The notes beneath the pieces were generated by a model. The model was not told the origin of the DNA, ran no database searches, and was given only the letters and a program-made list of their open reading frames with translations. The position numbers and the translations under genes are program-made. 32,917 nt of DNA from Draconibacterium sp. (GTDB lineage Bacteria; Bacteroidota; Bacteroidia; Bacteroidales; Prolixibacteraceae), in assembly GCA_021648495.1 (NCBI GenBank), contig JAKIST010000004.1:1-32917 (forward strand), given 5' to 3'. How positions within the stretch are numbered: position 1 is the stretch's first letter; each line of letters opens with the position of its first letter. This document shows positions 3,772 through 24,025 of the stretch, one piece after another.

Positions 3772-3938
3772 AAACTACAGCTATAATTTGTGTTTATAAC
3801 GAAGAAGGAACAGTAAATGATTTGGTAACAAAAGTTGCCAGATATTCTTTTAATGAAATCATTGTTGTTAACGATGGTTCAACGGATAAGGCCGATGAAA
3901 TATTAAACAAACTAAACCAGCCTTTAGACTTTAAATAG
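3768..3938 (+). pseudogene. truncated family-2 glycosyltransferase (N-terminal 56 aa only)
   Basis: ATGA overlap with the patatin stop; MKTTAIICVYNEEGTVNDLVTKVARYSFNEIIVVNDGSTDKADEILNKL is a clear GT2 N-terminus. The ORF stops at TAG inside the inverted-repeat end of the adjacent element. Confidence 0.8.
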
Positions 3939-4083
3939 AGTCTGTCCATAAAGTCAGTGTTTGATTCAGAAGGTTCGAATTCGAGGCTTGCGAAGTCAGA
4001 AAATAAAGGAGTTTACTCTTGTAAATGACTGTTTTTCTGACAAGCGTAACGAAGAAGTCGGACTTTATGGACAAACACTATTT
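3933..4083. mobile_element. MITE-like element with imperfect 23-bp terminal inverted repeats
   Basis: 3933-3955 AAATAGAGTCTGTCCATAAAGTC versus reverse complement of 4061-4083 AAATAGTGTTTGTCCATAAAGTC (21/23). Internal hairpin GTCAGAAAA...TTTTCTGAC; no transposase. Confidence 0.65.
3991..4054 (+). repeat. first copy of structured dispersed repeat core
   Basis: See 9352-9417; stems 3995-4003/4033-4041 and 4012-4016/4021-4025. Confidence 0.75.
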
Positions 4084-4232
4084 AGTGCTTCAGAGACTTC
4101 AGACGGACTTATTCCAATAGCATTTGCAATGTCTATATTCCGCCATTTATCATCTCCTATTGAAATAATCTTTAATAGAACTACAATGTCTTGTGGACGC
4201 ATTCCATTATGCTTCTTCATAATCCCTATCAT
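4065..4232 (-). pseudogene. truncated HTH (MarR-like/winged helix) transcriptional regulator
   Basis: Minus-strand reading MIGIMKKHNGMRPQDIVVLLKIISIGDDKWRNIDIANAIGISPSEVSEALNSVCP*; the HTH reading runs into the terminal repeat and stops there. Confidence 0.6.
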
Positions 4233-8407: not shown

Positions 8408-9517
8408 TCAATCTGTAATTACTTCGAGGTTATCTTTTAATGAATAGGCTTTTTCAACAGCTACCAGTTGGTTTTCCTCTACACCCGAAATAATTTCCAC
8501 ATAATCATTGTGCATAATTCCGGTTTCAATGTGGTGTTTTGTTGTTTTCCCATTTTCGATGGTGAAAACAAAATATTGTCCTTCTTCTTCAACGAGAGCA
8601 GAACGTGGCAACAACAGTGCTTCTTTGTGGACCGGTGTGGGGAAGGTTATTTTTACACGCATTCCGGGGCGGAATTTAAGTGAAGGATTATTTAATTTCA
8701 GTCGAATTATGAGACTTTGGTTTGCGGTAACATTTGCGGTAAATGTTTCGATGGGCAGGTTTAAATCGGGGTGAATGTAGTTGGTAAACTGAACTTTTAG
8801 CATTTTTGCTTTTCGTGCAGTTTCGAGATATTGAACGGGCAGTTCGCCTTGTACATCCAATATTCTTAAATCGCCAATATGAACGATGTGTTCTCCCTTT
8901 GCCACCACATCGCCGGTGTGCATCCTTACATCGAGCACAACCCCGGTAACCGGATAATAAAGCGGGATACTTTTTTCCTGTTCATCTAATAAAGGTTTTA
9001 ACTCGTCCGAAATATTTTCGGCGGCTTGCAAAAGGGCTTCACGACGGGCCGGAACAATAATTCCGGCGAGTTGGCCCTTTTCAACTTTATCGCCTTTAAG
9101 CAGCGCAAAATCCGTTAATCGTCCTTCAAATTGCGACGAAAGCCAGGCTTCCTGACGCAATGCCAGTTCTCCAAATATGGAAATTGTATCGGTAATATCT
9201 CCCCGGAAAACCTTCGCAGTTTTAATATGTACTTTTATTTTAGCTTTTACCGATTGGGTTTTTGGAGTTGGTTGACAAGCAAATAAAACAATTCCAGCTA
9301 TAAAAACCGGAAGTATTTTTCGAAATAGCCTTTGTAAGAAAACGCCAAATACTTCGTTACTCTCGTTTCTGAAACAGTCATTTACAAGAAGTAAACTCCT
9401 TGGTTTCAAAAACTTCGAAAGTCCCCGACAATTCGGGGCAGGCTTTGTTTTTGACGCTTTCTTATCAAAGCTGTGAAAATAGGTAGTTTTCTTGCTGGCA
9501 TTAAATGGATGATTCAT
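8408..9517 (-). CDS. RND efflux periplasmic adaptor (HlyD/MFP family)
   Basis: Lipoyl/barrel-like regions, GDVVAKGEHIVHIGDLRILDVQGELP, between TolC and RND genes. The N-terminal ~65 codons coincide with a dispersed repeat. Confidence 0.87.
   Translation of the reverse strand: MNHPFNASKKTTYFHSFDKKASKTKPAPNCRGLSKFLKPRSLLLVNDCFRNESNEVFGVFLQRLFRKILPVFIAGIVLFACQPTPKTQSVKAKIKVHIKTAKVFRGDITDTISIFGELALRQEAWLSSQFEGRLTDFALLKGDKVEKGQLAGIIVPARREALLQAAENISDELKPLLDEQEKSIPLYYPVTGVVLDVRMHTGDVVAKGEHIVHIGDLRILDVQGELPVQYLETARKAKMLKVQFTNYIHPDLNLPIETFTANVTANQSLIIRLKLNNPSLKFRPGMRVKITFPTPVHKEALLLPRSALVEEEGQYFVFTIENGKTTKHHIETGIMHNDYVEIISGVEENQLVAVEKAYSLKDNLEVITD
9352..9417 (-). repeat. second copy of structured dispersed repeat (core shared with 3991-4054)
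   Basis: AAGGAGTTTACTTCTTGTAAATGACTGTTT...GAGAGTAACGAAG on the - strand versus AAGGAGTTTACTCTTGTAAATGACTGTTT...AAGCGTAACGAAG on + at 4005-4054. TTTAC/GTAAA apical hairpin in both. Confidence 0.75.
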
Positions 9518-11109: not shown

Positions 11110-11856
11110 TTACAAAATGTTAATTTTGAAATCATCGAAAAAGGTTACCGCGTCGGCTTTCGACCAGAGTCCGATTTTTCCTTTTTTAGTGAATGTGGAA
11201 TCTTTTACTTTAAACAACTCTTTGCCATTCAGGTAAACAGTAAATATTTCGTCTTTTACAATAAGGCTCAGCGTGTTCCATCCACTGCCCAATTTATCAA
11301 CATCTACCCCATAAGTTCTTCCTAAGCCAACCAAGGGCAAATCGGAACGTTTTCCGTTTTCCACTTTGTACAAAACAACATTATCTTCAAGTGGATTGGC
11401 ACGTACCACGTAGTAATTATTTTTATCGATAAACCTCCACATGAAGCCGCCACCCTGATCGTGTTTTCCGGCAACTCCTTTTAAACGCACCGAAAGTTTC
11501 ATGTTTTTTGCATTAATAATGTTGTTTACGACAATATTAAAATGATTGTCTGGGTTTTTGCTGTACAATTGCGCCAGTACTTTGTTGCCTTGGTCGTTTG
11601 TAATTTTCCAGTCGGTTCCGCCAGAGCCTGAATAATATTGCGACCAATCTTCCGGCAACTTATTAACAGCATATTTTTCAAAATCAAAAATATTATTAGA
11701 AACAGAGTTTTCCGAATCTGCCATTTGAAGGAATTCAGTCTTGTTTATATTTTCATTAACTTGTTGGTTCGAAACAACTTTTCCGTCAGGTGATGATGCT
11801 TTGGCACTGGCAAGCGAAAAAATAATTGCCATTGCGGGAATGATAATTTTTTTCAT
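11110..11856 (-). CDS. secreted jelly-roll (LamG/DUF1080-like) protein
   Basis: Signal peptide; GGGFMWRFIDKNNYYVVRANPLEDNVVLYKVENG...GLWSKADAVTFFDDFKI. Confidence 0.65.
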   Translation of the reverse strand: MKKIIIPAMAIIFSLASAKASSPDGKVVSNQQVNENINKTEFLQMADSENSVSNNIFDFEKYAVNKLPEDWSQYYSGSGGTDWKITNDQGNKVLAQLYSKNPDNHFNIVVNNIINAKNMKLSVRLKGVAGKHDQGGGFMWRFIDKNNYYVVRANPLEDNVVLYKVENGKRSDLPLVGLGRTYGVDVDKLGSGWNTLSLIVKDEIFTVYLNGKELFKVKDSTFTKKGKIGLWSKADAVTFFDDFKINIL

Positions 11857-13313: not shown

Positions 13314-14003
13314 CTATTTTACAAGACTTTTTATTTTAAAATCATCAAAAAAGGTAATGGCATCTGCTTTTGTCCAAAGTCCTGCTTTCCCAGTTTTATT
13401 AATGGTTGAATCGGTACTTTGCAAAAATAGTTGCCCATCAAAATAGCATTTGATAGTGCAGCTTGAATGGGAAACTGTAATGTTGTGCCAGACATTGGCT
13501 GTTACGGGCAGGCTGTAACTCTTCAATCGTTTGCGGTTGCCATTAATCACTTTATAGAGCCTAAAATTGTTTTCCAGCGGATTGGCGCGGGCAATGTAAT
13601 AGTTGTCTGCATCCTGGTATCGCCAAACCAGCCCGCCACCCTGGTCTTCCTTTCCAGAGATAGCTTTTATATTTACTGATAAAATCAAGTCTTTAGGTTC
13701 ATCCTGCTTTAATACCAATAAGTTAAATAGATATCCGGAGCCTGAAGAAGATGTCTGTGCAAGCAATTTATTCTCTGAATTTGTTATAAGTTCCCAGTGC
13801 CCGGCGGTATTATTGCCAGTAACAGCCGAAAACCATTCTGTAGGAATATCACTGGTTTTACAGGAGTCGAAAGTTGCCGAATAATCGGCGTTTAACAAAA
13901 GTGAATCAATTACAGGGGAATTGTGCCGTGTATTTTCTGGTTTTTGCACACAGGCAGTTGCAACTAAGCCAAAAAATCCCAAAAGGAAAATGCTGTTTCT
14001 CAT
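13314..14003 (-). CDS. lipoprotein with jelly-roll (LamG/DUF1080-like) domain, paralogue of 11110-11856
   Basis: MRNSIFLLGFFGLVATAC lipoprotein signal; GGGLVWRYQDADNYYIARANPLENNFRLYKVINGNRK...GLWTKADAITFFDDFKI. Start chosen at the internal Met of the 13314-14027 ORF. Confidence 0.65.
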   Translation of the reverse strand: MRNSIFLLGFFGLVATACVQKPENTRHNSPVIDSLLLNADYSATFDSCKTSDIPTEWFSAVTGNNTAGHWELITNSENKLLAQTSSSGSGYLFNLLVLKQDEPKDLILSVNIKAISGKEDQGGGLVWRYQDADNYYIARANPLENNFRLYKVINGNRKRLKSYSLPVTANVWHNITVSHSSCTIKCYFDGQLFLQSTDSTINKTGKAGLWTKADAITFFDDFKIKSLVK

Positions 14004-14049
14004 GATGCAAATATAAATTCCCAACATGAAGAAATGATGAAGAAAAATA

Positions 14050-16185: not shown

Positions 16186-18765
16186 TTACTCTCCTTTCGA
16201 AACTACTTTTAATGTGGCCGGGAAATATATCAGATCGTAATCCGAATCGTAAACAAGGTATTTGTTCACCCATTCGGGTTTAAATTTCTCTTTAAATAAA
16301 TATTGCCCTTTAAAATGGTTTAAGGTTTTTAGGTTTTCAAGGGCAAACTTCATCGATCTTTCCGTCATATTTTTCGTCTCTGAAATACCGGCAAACGCCA
16401 CCATTCCTAAGTTAACTTTCAAAATACCTTGTTGTTTAAAATATTCAAACATTTCAATTAACAGAAAATATACGATTCCGGTTGGTGCATCATCGGCGAC
16501 ACGAATAAGGTCGTACGTACCTTCGCCTTTCACAAAATCCGGGATTATATTTAGGAACGCTACAATTTTCTCTTCGGAATTTTCGATGGTAAGAATGGTA
16601 GTTTCTTTCATTAGTTCGGGCAAAAACTTTCCTTGTGAAAAGATAGTTTCCGATTTTCCCGGTTTTTTTAACCAGTCATCCGAAACCTGCGTTAATTTTT
16701 GCATCACCCCATCTTTTATCATTGGGGAATAAAGATGAAAGGTAAACCCCATTTTTTTTGCTTTGTTGATTGCATTTCGGATGGGATGCATTTTCGAACC
16801 GGTCAACGAGAATGTTTCCAGGTTTAAAATTGCTTCCTGCCCAATAAAAATAGTTTTCTTTTTTAGATGGTGAAACCACACTGTCGATTCTTCGGGAACA
16901 CGATAGTAGAATGTTCGCAAGCCATTTTCTTTTGCATATTTTTCGAATTCGTGTAAAAGTTGTTTTTTGCCGGAATCGGTTTCGCACACGGGCAGTTCTA
17001 ATACCAAAGCAAAATTATGATGAATTTTATAGGCTAAAAATCCGTCATTATTAAAGAAAAATAATTTATCGGGGTAATATTTAAAATAGTCGAGTGCCGA
17101 GTTGCCATAATCTTTCACCAGCAATTTTGCATGGTTAATCTCATTTTCGTTGCTTTCTAAATCGTTTTTAAAAATGGGTTTTAACGAAAGGTAAATTGCC
17201 GAAACAAGAAGCCCCCCACTAAAGAGATAAATGGAATTAATAAAATAGTGGCCAAAGCTGGTTTGTGGTATATATTGCGAAGCATCAAAAAAGAATATTA
17301 AATGAAAAGAAGCTTTTATTGAACCAATAAAACTATAGTCCATTCCCATGTGGTTTTTCTCAAGAAAATAAGTGCCGCCAATGGCGTAAACGACAAGAAC
17401 AATTAATGCAGCTAACCACATTTTCCACAAATTTGTCCGGAGCATGGGGATCGATTTTACATTGTAATATTTGTAAGTGAACAGCAAACTTGCAATTGCA
17501 ATACACGAAAGAATTGCTTCTTCGTAATCGATTCCTTTTACAATATGCCCAATTGCCGAAAGGGCCAAAAGAAACAAAGTTATGCGCCAGGCCCTTTTTA
17601 CACCCCGTAATAAATAGAAGGCTAAAACAATAAGGAGCAAACCAATAAAAAACACACTAAAATTAGAGATGGACAACGCTATTTGGGGGAGTAGTTTTTC
17701 GAGGATGGCGATACGGCTTGGAATGGCAGGAGTGATAACAGAAAATACATTTATTAACCCCGAAATAAAAATGATAAAAACAGGCAAAACCCGCAACAGT
17801 ATATTTTTTCTTGAAAAGAGGAACGAACCCAAGCCGATAATTAAAGGCATCCAAAATTCGAAAAACCGGAATACCAGTGTAATTGCTGCTGCCGCTACTG
17901 TTGGAACCCCACTCCTGATAAATATGTATGTCATTGAAACTTCAATAGCACCCAAGCCCCTTAAAAAAGGTGACATAATCAGCAACATTACCATTACAAT
18001 GTAAGCAGTTAGCGAAATGAGCAAAGTGGGTTGAAACCCCAGCGCGAGCATTGAAATATAAACATGGGATACACCAATGAACTCAATGAGTACTGAAATA
18101 AACAAAGTAAACAAAAAATTCTTTTTATTTAATCTTGTCGAAGTAATGTTGTCAATAATAAGTGAAAGGCCCGGATTAAATCGAAGGATAAGTTTGTAAA
18201 AAAATTTCTTTTTGATAAACGACCAGGCAGCATAAATAAGGAAGCCAATTAATATCGATAATAAAAGGAAAGGAAGTAACTCGGTTGAGGTAAGTTTATT
18301 GTTCAACAAAAGCAGCAAAATAACTGGTATTGCAACTACTACAACCGATAAAAGCCCGGTTAATCCATAAATGTACGAGCCGTAATAAATATCGGTGGTG
18401 TTGATGCCTTTTTTTTTCAGCGGTTTTGTAAAAAATGCCAGCGACGAAAAACCACCTGCCGGCAAAAATACACTTATCACATTTCTTTTCAGGAAAAGTA
18501 AAAGGGTATCTTTTATCCCAACTTTTACTCCAACGGTTTTGAAACTAAAAACATACATTAATCCCTGGAACACAATATAAACCCCGGTAACAAAAAGTCC
18601 TAAAACCAAATAAAAACCATTGATGTGTTGTAGCGTTTTTTTTATTTCAACGAGTTCGAGGTGCTCGTTTTTAATAAAATAAATACTCGTTAACAGCATT
18701 AAAATAGCAAGCGCGATTTGCCAAAGCGGTTTATTTGTTTTACTATTCTTTAAAATCTGAATCAT
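16186..18765 (-). CDS. mprF: MprF-like flippase / DUF2156 phosphatidylglycerol lysyltransferase-type protein
   Basis: 859 aa: N-terminal UPF0104-like polytopic membrane domain and C-terminal GNAT-like DUF2156 domain (NAINKAKKMGFTFHLYSP, PTGIVYFLLIEMFEYFKQQGILKVNLGMVAFAG). Confidence 0.8.
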   Translation of the reverse strand: MIQILKNSKTNKPLWQIALAILMLLTSIYFIKNEHLELVEIKKTLQHINGFYLVLGLFVTGVYIVFQGLMYVFSFKTVGVKVGIKDTLLLFLKRNVISVFLPAGGFSSLAFFTKPLKKKGINTTDIYYGSYIYGLTGLLSVVVVAIPVILLLLLNNKLTSTELLPFLLLSILIGFLIYAAWSFIKKKFFYKLILRFNPGLSLIIDNITSTRLNKKNFLFTLFISVLIEFIGVSHVYISMLALGFQPTLLISLTAYIVMVMLLIMSPFLRGLGAIEVSMTYIFIRSGVPTVAAAAITLVFRFFEFWMPLIIGLGSFLFSRKNILLRVLPVFIIFISGLINVFSVITPAIPSRIAILEKLLPQIALSISNFSVFFIGLLLIVLAFYLLRGVKRAWRITLFLLALSAIGHIVKGIDYEEAILSCIAIASLLFTYKYYNVKSIPMLRTNLWKMWLAALIVLVVYAIGGTYFLEKNHMGMDYSFIGSIKASFHLIFFFDASQYIPQTSFGHYFINSIYLFSGGLLVSAIYLSLKPIFKNDLESNENEINHAKLLVKDYGNSALDYFKYYPDKLFFFNNDGFLAYKIHHNFALVLELPVCETDSGKKQLLHEFEKYAKENGLRTFYYRVPEESTVWFHHLKKKTIFIGQEAILNLETFSLTGSKMHPIRNAINKAKKMGFTFHLYSPMIKDGVMQKLTQVSDDWLKKPGKSETIFSQGKFLPELMKETTILTIENSEEKIVAFLNIIPDFVKGEGTYDLIRVADDAPTGIVYFLLIEMFEYFKQQGILKVNLGMVAFAGISETKNMTERSMKFALENLKTLNHFKGQYLFKEKFKPEWVNKYLVYDSDYDLIYFPATLKVVSKGE

Positions 18766-18926: not shown

Positions 18927-18979
18927 CTGCATTATTCATGAATTTTCGTTATGAGAAGTCAAAATACCAAGAATAAAGG
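18927..18979 (+). repeat. 53-bp inverted repeat, left copy
   Basis: CTGCATTATTCATGAATTTTCGTTATGAGAAGTCAAAATACCAAGAATAAAGG; matches reverse complement of 23973-24025 with one mismatch. Confidence 0.9.
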
Positions 18980-19118
18980 GAAGCGCAGAGTTGAGGCCCG
19001 CAGAAATAGCTTTAGGGATTGTAATGAAATAACCTAAGCGTTTTAATTCGTTCTTTTGCACGCTAACTTCGTCAATTCCAGTCATGTTATTTCTTCACAA
19101 ACCCTAAGAATAATGCAG
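18927..19118. mobile_element. MITE-like element, CTGCATTATTC termini with nested internal inverted repeat
   Basis: CTGCATTATTC 18927-18937 versus GAATAATGCAG 19108-19118; internal CTTTAGGGATTGTAATGAAATAAC (19010-19033) versus GTTATTTCTTCACAAACCCTAAG (19086-19108). Confidence 0.6.
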
Positions 19119-19339
19119 ATAAAACTGTATGGCCTAATTTATCTATTCCCTTACCCCACAGTATAACGTTCTGAGGAAACAGGCTACACTCAAGATATTA
19201 ACACGTTCAGTAAAATTAATTGCTATCATCAAATAAAAACGTTATAATTTTTTTTGAATTTCTGAATCAGAACTCAAAAAACATATCAATAATTTTATAT
19301 ATTCGCCAATAATATTACTATTTCGAAAAAGGTGTTACT

Positions 19340-19741
19340 ATGACAGTTTCAAGAATTGGTGTTTCATTGGAGAAGGATCTTTTGGATGCTTTGGATGAAT
19401 ATGTAAAGTTGAACCACTTTTCGAACCGCTCGCAAGCGATTCGTCATTTGGTGAATAAAAACATGGTTGAACAAAAGTGGCAATGCAATAACTATGTTGC
19501 CGGCTCGGTTACTTTATTGTACGACCCGCACCGCCATGAAATACAGAATCAAATCTCCGATATCCAGATAAATTATCATCAGGAAATATTGTCAACACAA
19601 CGAATTATATTAGACAAAACAAAACAGATGGAAATAATTGCCATAAAAGGAGTTGCCAGTCGCCTAACTGAACTGGCAGATAAATTAATAACAATTAAAG
19701 GAATGCAAAACGGAAAATTAACCATGAGCAGGACTGATTAA
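19340..19741 (+). CDS. nikR: NikR-family ribbon-helix-helix regulator with degenerate metal site
   Basis: N-terminal RHH VSRIGVSLEKDLLDALDEYVKLNHFSNRSQAIRHLV and C-terminal ACT-like domain (DIQINYHQEILSTQRIILDKTKQMEIIAIKGVASRLTELADKLITIKGMQNGKL) align with NikR. Confidence 0.82.
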   Translation: MTVSRIGVSLEKDLLDALDEYVKLNHFSNRSQAIRHLVNKNMVEQKWQCNNYVAGSVTLLYDPHRHEIQNQISDIQINYHQEILSTQRIILDKTKQMEIIAIKGVASRLTELADKLITIKGMQNGKLTMSRTD

Positions 19742-19742
19742 T

Positions 19743-19787
19743 TTTTTTAAATTAATGGTATTACGTTTTTTAAATTAATGCTACCAT
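19743..19787. promoter_or_regulatory. candidate operator: 15-bp direct repeat and ATGGTA-N21-TACCAT dyad upstream of larE
   Basis: TTTTTTAAATTAATG at 19743-19757 and 19766-19780; ATGGTA 19755-19760 and TACCAT 19782-19787. Confidence 0.4.
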
Positions 19788-19808: not shown

Positions 19809-20642
19809 ATGAATAACTTGAGTCCTCACCTTCAAAATAAAATTCAACTTTTAGAAAAGTGGTTTTCAAAAAGAAAAGGTTCTATTGTAGCTTTTTCGGG
19901 AGGAATTGACTCCACATTGGTCCTTTTTCTATCGCGGAAATTTCAGGGGAAACAAAATGCGATTGGTGTAATATCAAATTCAGAAAGCCTGAAAAGCAAA
20001 GATTTTGAGTTGGCAAAAAACTTTTGCAAAACATTCGATGTTCATCTTGAAATTATAAAAACATTAGAATTAGCCGATGAACGTTACAATCAAAACCCCG
20101 AGAACCGCTGTTATTTCTGCAAAGAACATCTTTTTCACGATTTACAGGGCATCAAAGAAAAATACCCTGAATTTGATGTTTTAAGTGGAACAAATTACGA
20201 TGACTTGGGAGATTACCGACCGGGTTTGCAGGCAGCTGCAAAATATAAAGTTTTGTCGCCAATGGTAGATTGCAACCTTACAAAAAATGAATTGCGCCAA
20301 ATTGCCAAACACTTCGAACTTCCAAACTGGGACAAACCTGCCAGTCCGTGTTTAAGCTCCCGCATTCCTTACAACCATCAGATTACAAGAAAAAAATTGC
20401 AACAAGTTGAGGATGCGGAAAACATTCTGAACGACTTTGGTTTTAGGGATGTCCGCGTTCGCCATTACGGAACTTACGGGCAAATTGAAGTTCAAAAAAG
20501 CGAGTTGGAAAAACTGCTCCTTGTGGAAAATGAAGTTTTGGATAAAATGAAAAATATTGGTTTCGCAGAATTGAAAATTGACAAAGAAGGCTTGGTTTCA
20601 GGAAAACTAAACCGGGTATTGAAGAATGTAAATAAGCAATAA
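19809..20642 (+). CDS. larE: LarE, nickel-pincer cofactor sulfur transferase
   Basis: PP-loop AFSGGIDSTLVLFLS, RCYFCKEHLF, SGTNYDDLGDYRPGLQAA, KPASPCLSSRIPY; adjacent to larC and larB. Confidence 0.93.
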   Translation: MNNLSPHLQNKIQLLEKWFSKRKGSIVAFSGGIDSTLVLFLSRKFQGKQNAIGVISNSESLKSKDFELAKNFCKTFDVHLEIIKTLELADERYNQNPENRCYFCKEHLFHDLQGIKEKYPEFDVLSGTNYDDLGDYRPGLQAAAKYKVLSPMVDCNLTKNELRQIAKHFELPNWDKPASPCLSSRIPYNHQITRKKLQQVEDAENILNDFGFRDVRVRHYGTYGQIEVQKSELEKLLLVENEVLDKMKNIGFAELKIDKEGLVSGKLNRVLKNVNKQ

Positions 20643-21818
20643 ATGAGAATATTATATTACGATTGTTTTGCAGGAATTAGCGGAGATATGAACCTCGGAG
20701 CACTGATTGATTTGGGCGTTGACATTAATTACCTGACCTCGGAGCTTGAAAAGCTGAATATCGAAGGTTTTCATTTGGAAGTAAAACAAGACCAACGACG
20801 GGGAATTACAGGAACAAAGGCGGAGGTAATCGTCGAAAACCAGGAAAATGAAAAGCACCGGCATTTGCGGCACATCGAAGAATTAATTAATGACAGTTCG
20901 TTGCCGGAAAGAGTGAAAATCAATTCATTAAAAATATTCGATTTGATTGCCGTGGCAGAGGCCAAAGTTCATAATATCTCAAAAGGGAAAGTTCATTTTC
21001 ATGAAGTTGGTGCTCTCGATTCTATCGCCGACATTGTTGGCGCTGCTATTTGTTTAGATTATCTGAAGGTAGATAAAGTTATATCTTCTTCTATTCAATT
21101 GGGGGGAGGAACCGTGAAATGTGCCCACGGAATTATGCCCGTGCCTGCCCCGGCCACTGCCGAAATTGTATTGGATATCCCTGTGAAAACCGGATTGGTA
21201 AACCACGAAGCAACCACTCCGACCGGAGCAGCAATTTTGGTTGCCACGGTTGATGAATTCACCGATAAAATTGAATTCCCAATTATAAAAGCGGCATACG
21301 GAATTGGTAATCGCGATAGTGAAGTGCCCAATGTTTTGCGTGTTTATTTGTGTGAAGATGCTGAACAATTAAAAGATGTTCACACCGAAGAAGCAATTGT
21401 TTTGGAGAGCAATATCGACGACATGAACCCGGAACATTATGATTTTGTTTTGGAGCAATTATTTACGGCCGGGGCAAGTGATGCCTGGCTGACATCGATT
21501 GTAATGAAAAAATCGAGACCGGCAGTCACACTTTCAATTCTTTGTAAAGAGCAGTTGGCAGAAAAAATGAAAGAGATAGTTTTTTTGCACAGCACTTCAA
21601 TTGGAATTCGTGAATATCGTGTGAAAAAAAATATGCTCCGTCGTGAAAAATCAACGATAGAAACTGTTTTTGGCCCGGTACGGATTAAACAAAGTTTTTT
21701 CAATGGGAAAATGGTACGTTCAAAACCCGAGTTTGAAGATTGTAAAAAGTTAGCGGAAAAACATCAAATAAGTATTTCTGAAATTGAAAATGCGGTAATT
21801 AAAATAGCTGATAAATAA
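20643..21818 (+). CDS. larC: LarC, nickel insertion protein (single uninterrupted ORF)
   Basis: MRILYYDCFAGISGDMNLGALIDLG, KVHFHEVGALDSIADIVGAAICLDYL, LESNIDDMNPEHYDFVLEQLFTAGASDAWLTSIVMKKSRPA. Confidence 0.95.
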   Translation: MRILYYDCFAGISGDMNLGALIDLGVDINYLTSELEKLNIEGFHLEVKQDQRRGITGTKAEVIVENQENEKHRHLRHIEELINDSSLPERVKINSLKIFDLIAVAEAKVHNISKGKVHFHEVGALDSIADIVGAAICLDYLKVDKVISSSIQLGGGTVKCAHGIMPVPAPATAEIVLDIPVKTGLVNHEATTPTGAAILVATVDEFTDKIEFPIIKAAYGIGNRDSEVPNVLRVYLCEDAEQLKDVHTEEAIVLESNIDDMNPEHYDFVLEQLFTAGASDAWLTSIVMKKSRPAVTLSILCKEQLAEKMKEIVFLHSTSIGIREYRVKKNMLRREKSTIETVFGPVRIKQSFFNGKMVRSKPEFEDCKKLAEKHQISISEIENAVIKIADK

Positions 21819-22555
21819 TGGATCCAAAAGATATTCTTGAAAAATATAAAAATGGCGAAATTGACTTGCCGGAAGCATTGGAGCATTTTCCAAAAAGGGG
21901 CATTGAAGAGATGGGTTTTGCAACCCTCGATATCGATCGTCAGCACCGCACCGGACTTCCCGAAGTAATTTATGCATCGGGAAAAACAGTTGAACAGGTT
22001 CAAATGATTGCGGAGCGGATGTACCAAAAAGGAATTGATGTGCTGGCAACACGCGTGACTCCAGAAATGGTTGATGCCGTGAAAGCCGTAATTCCGGGAG
22101 CCGAATACAATGCGCTGGCAAGAACAATCTCTTTTGCAAAAGCAACAGAGGTAGTTGCGAAAGGGTACATTGCTATTATTGCCGCCGGAACGTCAGATTT
22201 GCCCGTTGCCGAAGAAGCTGCTGTTACAGCACGGTTTTTAGGTAATAAAGTTGAAACGGTTTACGATGTTGGTGTGGCCGGAATTCATCGTTTGTTCAAC
22301 AAGCTGGAACTCATTCGTAATGCCCGGGTTTTGATTGTAGTAGCCGGAATGGAAGGAGCGTTGACCAGCGTTGTGGGCGGATTGGTTGACAAGCCTGTAA
22401 TTGGAGTGCCAACAAGTATTGGTTATGGTGCTAATTTCCAAGGTCTGTCGGCACTTCTTGCCATGCTAAACAGTTGTGCCAGCGGTGTTAGTGTGGTTAA
22501 TATCGACAATGGTTTTGGAGCTGCTTGCCAGGCTTCATTAATTAATAAATTATAA
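21818..22555 (+). CDS. larB: LarB, nickel-pincer cofactor biosynthesis carboxylase/hydrolase
   Basis: AIR-carboxylase-like (PurE-like) domain: AAGTSDLPVAEEAAVTARFLG, DVGVAGIHRLF, VVAGMEGALTSVVGGLVDKPVIGVPTSIGYGANFQGLSALLAMLNSCASGVSVVNIDNGFGAA. Confidence 0.95.
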   Translation: MDPKDILEKYKNGEIDLPEALEHFPKRGIEEMGFATLDIDRQHRTGLPEVIYASGKTVEQVQMIAERMYQKGIDVLATRVTPEMVDAVKAVIPGAEYNALARTISFAKATEVVAKGYIAIIAAGTSDLPVAEEAAVTARFLGNKVETVYDVGVAGIHRLFNKLELIRNARVLIVVAGMEGALTSVVGGLVDKPVIGVPTSIGYGANFQGLSALLAMLNSCASGVSVVNIDNGFGAACQASLINKL

Positions 22556-22565
22556 AATTTGTTTT

Positions 22566-23264
22566 ATGAAAGAATTGTATTTACTCTATGTTTCGGCAGC
22601 TTCACTCGGATTTGTGCACACCATTCTGGGACCCGACCATTATTTGCCTTTTATCGTTTTGAGCAAAGCCAGAAAATGGTCGAACAAAAAAACCATGTGG
22701 ATTACTTTTTTTTCCGGGATAGGTCATGTTGGGAGTTCTGTAATAATTGGAATGTTAGGGATTGCCCTGGGGATTAGCTTAAAAAAGTTAGAATATTTCG
22801 AATCTTTCCGGGGAGAATTGGTTGGCTGGATGTTATTAGTTTTTGGAGTTTTATATACTATTTATGGAATTTATAAATATTTGAAGAACTCACATCATTT
22901 TCACTTGCCCGATTTTTTAGTACCCAAAAAGATACGCGGGCTGCAACATCTCCCAACCGAAGAGCAAAAGGAAGATAACACGAGGTTAACTCCCTGGATC
23001 CTATTTTTGATTTTTGTTTTCGGCCCCTGCGAAGTACTTATTCCCATGTTGATTTTCCCAGCCTATGAAAACAGTACTTTTGGTATGCTTACCGTAGCAC
23101 TTATTTTTGGTATTGCCACCATTTCAACCATGATGGTTATCGTTTATTTTGGGACCAAAGGCATGTCGCTGATAAAATTAAAGAAACACGAAAAGTACCT
23201 TCACCTGTTTGCCGGAATTCTGATTCTAATCACTGCTTTGGGGATATTGTTTTTGGGGTTGTAA
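22566..23264 (+). CDS. UreH/TauE-like polytopic membrane protein, probable nickel transporter
   Basis: Multiple TM helices, HTILGPDHYLPF and GHVGSSVIIG motifs; genetic linkage to larECB and the NikR-like gene. Confidence 0.7.
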   Translation: MKELYLLYVSAASLGFVHTILGPDHYLPFIVLSKARKWSNKKTMWITFFSGIGHVGSSVIIGMLGIALGISLKKLEYFESFRGELVGWMLLVFGVLYTIYGIYKYLKNSHHFHLPDFLVPKKIRGLQHLPTEEQKEDNTRLTPWILFLIFVFGPCEVLIPMLIFPAYENSTFGMLTVALIFGIATISTMMVIVYFGTKGMSLIKLKKHEKYLHLFAGILILITALGILFLGL

Positions 23265-23610: not shown

Positions 23611-23972
23611 AACTAATTGATTTTTGAGGTGGAGAATAGCGAACTCAAATCGCTGACTTTTCGACTGTTGGTGAAAATACAACAAATCTTTTTCATTGGT
23701 TTTAATAGCATAAAATTTATTGAATTCAATAAACCAGAATAAAAGCAGGGAAAAGTACATGTAAATATTCTATGCAATTTAATTTGAGATGGAAAGAAAA
23801 TAGATATTTTTAAGGTCACTTTTCTTTCCCCAAATAAAAGGAAAATCTTTTATCCTGAATAATTCACAAATATTTCTATTCCGAAACCAAACTACTTTGC
23901 ATAAATGTAATGCTCGGAATCCAATTCTCAAAATAGCAACTGCTATTCCTGTGAGTTGAATTCCTGCGCTCA

Positions 23973-24025
23973 CCTTTATTCTTTGTATTTTGACTTCTCA
24001 TAACGAAAATTCATGAATAATGCAG
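23973..24025 (-). repeat. 53-bp inverted repeat, right copy
   Basis: Reverse complement CTGCATTATTCATGAATTTTCGTTATGAGAAGTCAAAATACAAAGAATAAAGG; 52/53 with 18927-18979. Confidence 0.9.

Follow-up and report, generated by a model that had tools for sequence, protein, structure and literature searches.

A NikR-family protein without the nickel ligands heads a lar operon in Draconibacterium

NikR is a textbook metalloregulator, and the locus described here raises the question of what a protein of this family does when the residues that should bind nickel are not there. The window (the whole stretch of 32,917 nucleotides that we analysed) contains a nikR-like gene at the head of an operon with the order nikR-larE-larC-larB-nicO (Table 1). 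The starting compound nicotinic acid adenine dinucleotide is converted by LarB, LarE and LarC into the cofactor nickel-pincer nucleotide, or NPN (PMC11770544). Our best explanation, to which we assign a probability of about 0.7, is that the window protein is a functional, operator-binding regulator of NPN synthesis that has no nickel site. (Note that this reading is drawn from sequence comparison and that the identity of the input to the regulator lies outside the figure.) In the open-access papers that we searched we found no report of a NikR free of nickel ligands or of control of lar genes by NikR.

Table 1. Positions in the window of the nikR-like gene, its diagnostic codons, its neighbours and putative control elements.
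Feature	Position	Strand	Detail
Bacteroidota-type -7 promoter box TATATTCG	19298..19305	+	match to consensus TAnnTTTG
Putative NikR-type operator ATATTAC-N13-GTGTTAC	19312..19338	+	ends one base before the nikR ATG
nikR-like gene, RHH DNA-binding and NikR_C domains, nickel ligands absent	19340..19741	+	133 aa
Trp47-Gln48-Cys49 codons, invariant hinge W47 and C49	19478..19486	+	74/74 broken-site NikRs
Ile77 codon, at the His76 ligand position	19568..19570	+	HMMER and profile alignment
Arg88 codon, at the His87 ligand position	19601..19603	+	HMMER and profile alignment
Ile90 codon, at the His89 ligand position	19607..19609	+	HMMER and profile alignment
Gln96 codon, at the Cys95 ligand position	19625..19627	+	HMMER and profile alignment
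Possible weaker second operator GTATTAC-N13-ATGCTAC	19758..19784	+	between nikR and larE; score 11/14
larE, sulfur transferase of NPN synthesis	19809..20642	+	TIGR00268, 282.9 bits
larC, nickel insertion protein of NPN synthesis	20643..21818	+	PF01969, 489 bits; LarC1 and LarC2 models
larB, pyridinium carboxylase of NPN synthesis	21818..22555	+	NF033503, 300 bits
Membrane protein, DsbD_2/UreH-NicO type	22566..23264	+	PF13386, 33.8 bits

Family, fold and ligand positions of the window protein

The window protein matched the Pfam models NikR_C (PF08753; 77.4 bits, cut-off 22) and RHH_1 (PF01402; 25 bits, cut-off 20.5), and its relatives in the PDB by sequence were the NikR proteins of P. horikoshii (2bj1, E=1e-22), H. 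pylori and E. coli. An AlphaFold2 monomer predicted with 14 relatives as input had a mean pLDDT of 79.8, with low confidence at residues 1-7. When it was compared with the PDB by Foldseek, the 50 best-ranked matches were all NikR structures, and the predicted monomer has the NikR tertiary fold. In HMMER alignments with P. horikoshii (2bj1) and H. pylori NikR, which are free of gaps across the ligand region, the four ligands pair with I77, R88, I90 and Q96. A profile alignment that included E. coli NikR (sequence identical to 1q5v) gave the same four residues, and the square-planar site formed by His76, His87, His89 and Cys95 is absent from the window protein. The first-pass annotation of this DNA had read the same replacements by eye (His76 to Ile, His87 to Arg, His89 to Ile and Cys95 to Gln), and its view that the RHH domain and the ACT-like fold are intact and the square-planar site is lost agrees with the alignments, the structure model and dozens of relatives.

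Histidines in the motifs DPHRHE and NYH had been named as residues that might supply an alternative site. These are not conserved even in close relatives (one, L003, has DPNRRE and another, L004, lacks the His of NYH), and we rejected a replacement metal site built from them. No new conserved cluster of His or Cys residues that could replace the site was found across the NikRs with broken sites. The secondary metal (K+) site of NikR includes residues E30 and D34 (PMC7055735), and these are Q32 and H36 in the window protein. Because E30 and D34 are also missing from most of the intact-site Bacteroidales NikRs, we rejected the idea that their loss was part of the event in which the nickel ligands were lost.

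The window protein scored 116 bits against the NCBIfam NikR equivalog model NF003381, above the cut-off of 105, despite its missing nickel site, which argues that automated annotation of this branch is likely to be misleading. Databases call broken-site proteins nickel-responsive by homology, and for the window protein this label is probably wrong. Judged by its sequence and fold the window protein is a member of the NikR family; judged by the feature that defines a nickel response, it is not. In common with the NikR proteins of E. coli (1q5v/2hza), P. horikoshii (2bj1) and H. pylori (6mrj) it has the RHH and ACT-like fold, the DNA-reading residues, the operator type and the link to nickel genes, but unlike them it lacks the four ligands, heads an NPN operon and is likely not nickel-dependent.

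The lar operon and its operator

The first-pass annotation had also placed the gene at the head of a Lar operon, and larE, larC and larB indeed follow it, all with scores above the NCBIfam cut-offs. The membrane protein encoded last in the operon, which has an H-x5-DH motif close to its N terminus, is presumed to be a nickel importer; homologues of this nicO type sit either in the lar operon or beside nikR genes whose products keep the His3Cys site (hereafter HHHC NikRs). The gene order of the window is also found in relatives; in some other Bacteroidales (L017, L062 and L063) the genes are arranged as nikR-nicO-larE-larB-larC. LarA was not found in the window genome, which is 74% complete, and a Lar_N-type match, mostly weak, was present in 125 of 140 genomes of the window's family. 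(The nikR-lar operon lies between the two copies of a 62-bp inverted repeat, at 18927-18988 and 23964-24025, which share 95% identity and are about 5 kb apart.)

LarR of Lactobacillus plantarum, reportedly described by Desguin in 2015, is said to regulate lactate racemisation. LarR is a lactate-responsive regulator of the Crp/Fnr type. The window protein would resemble it as a dedicated regulator of lactate-racemisation or lar genes, and the folds of the two are unrelated.

The half-sites of the putative operator that precedes nikR in the window are direct rather than inverted. Across lar loci the consensus consists of GTGTTAC/GTAACAC half-sites with a 13-14 bp spacer, directly upstream of the start codon, and is the same as the NikR signal published for delta-proteobacteria, GTGTTAC-[N13/14]-GTAACAC, for which other orientations of the half-sites were noted too (PMC545781). 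An operator score of at least 11/14 was obtained at 32 of the 34 lar loci compared with 1.5% of shuffles, and 28 of the 34 nikR genes linked to lar have a TAnnTT(T/C)G-like box upstream of the operator, in most cases 36-43 bp ahead of the ATG. The possible second operator between nikR and larE has counterparts in L003 (score 11) and, more weakly, in L005 and L006 (score 10), and none in the other relatives examined. Note that genome-wide operator counts in the window genome showed no excess over a control pattern, and for this reason we used only operator sites that are supported by their position.

The same operator precedes 71% of the HHHC NikRs beside TonB receptors and 86% of those beside nicO, which argues that the DNA target predates the loss of the ligands. 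These Bacteroidales HHHC NikRs are the closest intact relatives of the window protein; their operator has the same position relative to the start codon and the nearest of them share the KWxC hinge of the window protein, but they keep the His3Cys site and in the loci that we read are never beside lar.

We also scored the regions upstream of lar operons that have no adjacent nikR, taking a score of at least 12/14 as an operator. LarC is present in 61 genomes of the family, and in 28 of these nikR is at the head of the operon. Where nikR was absent from the lar operon, an operator was found in 10 of the 16 genomes with a NikR at some other locus, compared with 0 of 13 genomes without any NikR (Fisher p=4e-4, uncorrected for relatedness; 14 NikR-less genomes were looked at and one was left out for too little sequence, and of those scored one gave only 52 bases and another was readable only from larC). 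The NikRs of the ten operator-positive genomes are all of broken-site types, and G769, the one genome of the set known to have an HHHC NikR, had no lar operator. At such nikR-less lar operons a broken-site NikR would act on the operator in trans. (Three genomes, G787, G788 and G785, have a stand-alone broken NikR and an operator at a lar operon elsewhere in the genome.)

Distribution, ancestry and selection

The sample comprised 295 Bacteroidales genomes, 396 Bacteroidota genomes and 140 genomes of the window's family, together with GTDB contigs, and yielded 155 distinct NikR proteins, namely 80 HHHC proteins, 74 full-length broken-site proteins and one pseudogene. All 34 distinct proteins encoded next to lar genes are broken, 29 of them keeping none of the four ligands and five keeping one. 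A further nine lar-operon loci, from one genus, encode LQNC-like broken variants. None of the 80 HHHC NikRs adjoins lar genes, although many of the HHHC loci span only about 3 kb and so show close neighbours alone. Relatives of the window gene at 92 to 55% identity all keep the gene and all have a broken site, and 20 family members added later brought two more HHHC proteins, the rest being broken. The search that had been proposed, for a clade of ligand-less NikRs that co-occurs with larBCE, gave a positive result, with several lineages and the operator retained.

Ligand loss is wider than the lar operons and not exclusive to them. TonB-receptor genes adjoin 31 broken-site NikRs (the QQYC and YGYY types are examples), and another nine, with an operator in 0 of 9, are separate from both lar and TonB genes; about half of the broken-site NikRs thus head TonB-receptor operons or stand alone. 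The QQYC-like group occurs beside TonB-receptor genes in other Bacteroidales families (L052, L053, L055-L058, L060, L061 and L070-L072), and no recognisable NikR operator precedes the start codons of this group. Stand-alone broken NikRs with neither lar nor TonB neighbours were seen at L143, L147-L149, L152, L156, L158, L171, L184 and L185, and these have no operator of their own.

In a NikR tree built without the ligand columns (125 columns, with many weak forks), a single origin of all lar NikRs was rejected (AU p=1.6e-4, from a tree with few columns), and the best tree requires four changes of ligand state. The nickel site thus appears, from this tree, to have been lost more than once; because the tree is small and many of its forks are weak, repeated loss is the better reading rather than a proven count. 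When lar linkage and ligand loss were compared in an independent-pairs test, three pairs lay on supported branches, too few to separate the association from ancestry.

Pairwise dN/dS within the lar group was 0.04-0.11 (for pairs with usable dS), and for the window protein and L003 dN was 0.049 and dS 1.14; these substitution rates indicate strong purifying selection on the window protein. The 74 broken proteins share, without exception, residues of the DNA-binding domain (R5, S9, D19, N29, R30, S31, A33 and R35), of the hinge (K46, W47, C49, V53, A54 and G55) and of a few positions in the core (G104, L109, T110, L127 and M129). The former ligand columns are invariant in the HHHC proteins; ranked by variability within the main lar group, they lie at the 86th, 47th, 79th and 95th percentile. 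In the two main lar groups, 28 of 30 proteins have Arg at the His87 position. (We considered as a general lock, and rejected, a Glu-Arg salt bridge linking the His76 and His87 positions, since only 13 of the 21 proteins in the main lar group have the Glu and the window protein lacks it.) A large and apparently still functional NikR branch, in which the metal site seems to have been lost repeatedly and the operator kept, offers a test of how the allostery of a metal switch can be rewired, and marks the broken-site NikR as a candidate regulator of NPN cofactor synthesis.

Possible inputs to the regulator

According to the explanation that we favour, the window protein would be a NikR-derived DNA-binding repressor that no longer uses its His3Cys square-planar nickel site. 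It would bind the ancestral NikR operator where transcription of its own operon begins and would thereby autoregulate nikR-larE-larC-larB-nicO, and with it NPN synthesis and the presumed nickel importer. We infer that repression would come from covering the start site, with no need for Ni2+ at the old site. Because the ligands are lost, the DNA-reading residues and the operator are kept and dozens of relatives are alike, the window protein probably responds to something other than free nickel.

The hinge offers a hint that there is still a signal to respond to. In alignment W47 corresponds to Trp54, an allosteric residue of H. pylori NikR, and changing Trp54 to Ala uncouples nickel binding from DNA binding and leaves DNA binding by the apo protein unchanged (PMC9860126). 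The full conservation of Trp47 thus hints that the C-terminal domain of the broken-site NikRs may still send a signal. One candidate input is an anionic NPN-pathway metabolite, which would bind at the vacated interface of the ACT-like domain, where the conserved Arg lies, and would provide end-product feedback. This candidate is favoured because the linkage to NPN synthesis is found in more than one lineage, the coupling hinge is retained and the Arg in the vacated site is conserved. We hold, weakly, that such a metabolite is the most likely input, a constitutive autorepressor being about or almost as likely; the pincer cofactor that the first-pass annotation had proposed as an input is likewise a hypothesis. 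The fuller proposal, that in Bacteroidales the metal site was turned more than once into an ACT-type pocket sensing NPN or its precursors, making the protein a feedback regulator of NPN synthesis, is less likely than not, and since broken sites also occur away from lar, loss of the site does not require NPN sensing. ACT-domain regulators and enzymes bind small organic ligands at domain interfaces. Their likeness to the NikR C-terminal domain is in the ACT-like fold, and is only a lead for metabolite sensing.

A regulator that is blind to any signal is a real possibility, albeit short of even odds. Here side chains would fill the old site and lock the tetramer in a DNA-competent state, and negative feedback would hold lar expression at a steady level. 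Consistent with this, the main lar group shows free variation at three of the four former ligand columns (those at the 86th, 79th and 95th percentile), and the model predicts a well-ordered helix after the hinge even though nickel is absent. Moreover, apo-NikR of H. pylori samples DNA-competent states, and some apo mutants bind DNA more tightly (PMC9860126). However, a signal-blind protein would have no need of Trp47, whose H. pylori counterpart is dispensable for apo DNA binding and which is nonetheless invariant in the broken-site NikRs, and the Arg kept at the His87 position also speaks against a protein of this kind.

We consider it unlikely that a metal, thiol or redox response has moved to another part of the protein, such as the interdomain hinge, where Cys49 is close to Trp47, and Met129. 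Cys49 and Met129 are both invariant in the 74 broken-site NikRs, compared with Cys49 in only 17 of 62 HHHC rows, and M129 aligns with Lys140 of H. pylori NikR, so that W47 and M129 both have counterparts at the domain interface, where Trp54 and Lys140 have described roles (PMC9860126). Yet 16 of the 20 nearest HHHC relatives already have Cys49, which argues that it was inherited and is not a replacement, and neither a partner His nor a second Cys is conserved (the window protein has Asn in place of His124).

Still less probable is a protein that continues to sense nickel through a weak or altered site hidden from alignment, for example by three-ligand coordination aided by the main chain or other residues. 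The product of the operon is a nickel cofactor, one of its genes encodes the presumed nickel importer, and 32 of 34 proteins retain Glu98 (E97 in E. coli) beside the former site, but 29 of the 34 lar-linked proteins have none of the four ligands, and the secondary residues are changed as well, as they already are in intact-site relatives. Finally, that the gene is a functionless, decaying copy is scarcely credible, for although the same genome holds a decayed NikR, the low dN/dS, the full-length reading frames in dozens of species and the retained operator all speak against it.

The decayed nikR, on contig C18 at 16404-16845 (L002), has an in-frame stop codon and a frameshift, and its own upstream operator is still readable. 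When the gene is read across the frameshift the surroundings of His87 and Cys95 are kept, which suggests that it was probably once a canonical NikR. Beside it, just before the ATG of a TonB-receptor gene, is an intact-looking operator, GTAACAC-N14-GTAATAC, and the window protein may therefore have inherited that target.

A 149-bp interspersed repeat at 3937-4085 of the window recurs with 93% identity beside the decayed nikR (L002:1077-1225), and a diverged partial copy of it lies at window 9323-9401. Also in the window, the genes at 11110-11856 and 13314-14027 encode two secreted proteins that resemble each other in length and in their C-terminal halves (ending KADAxTFFDDFKI), and this pair flanks a gene resembling those for outer-membrane efflux.
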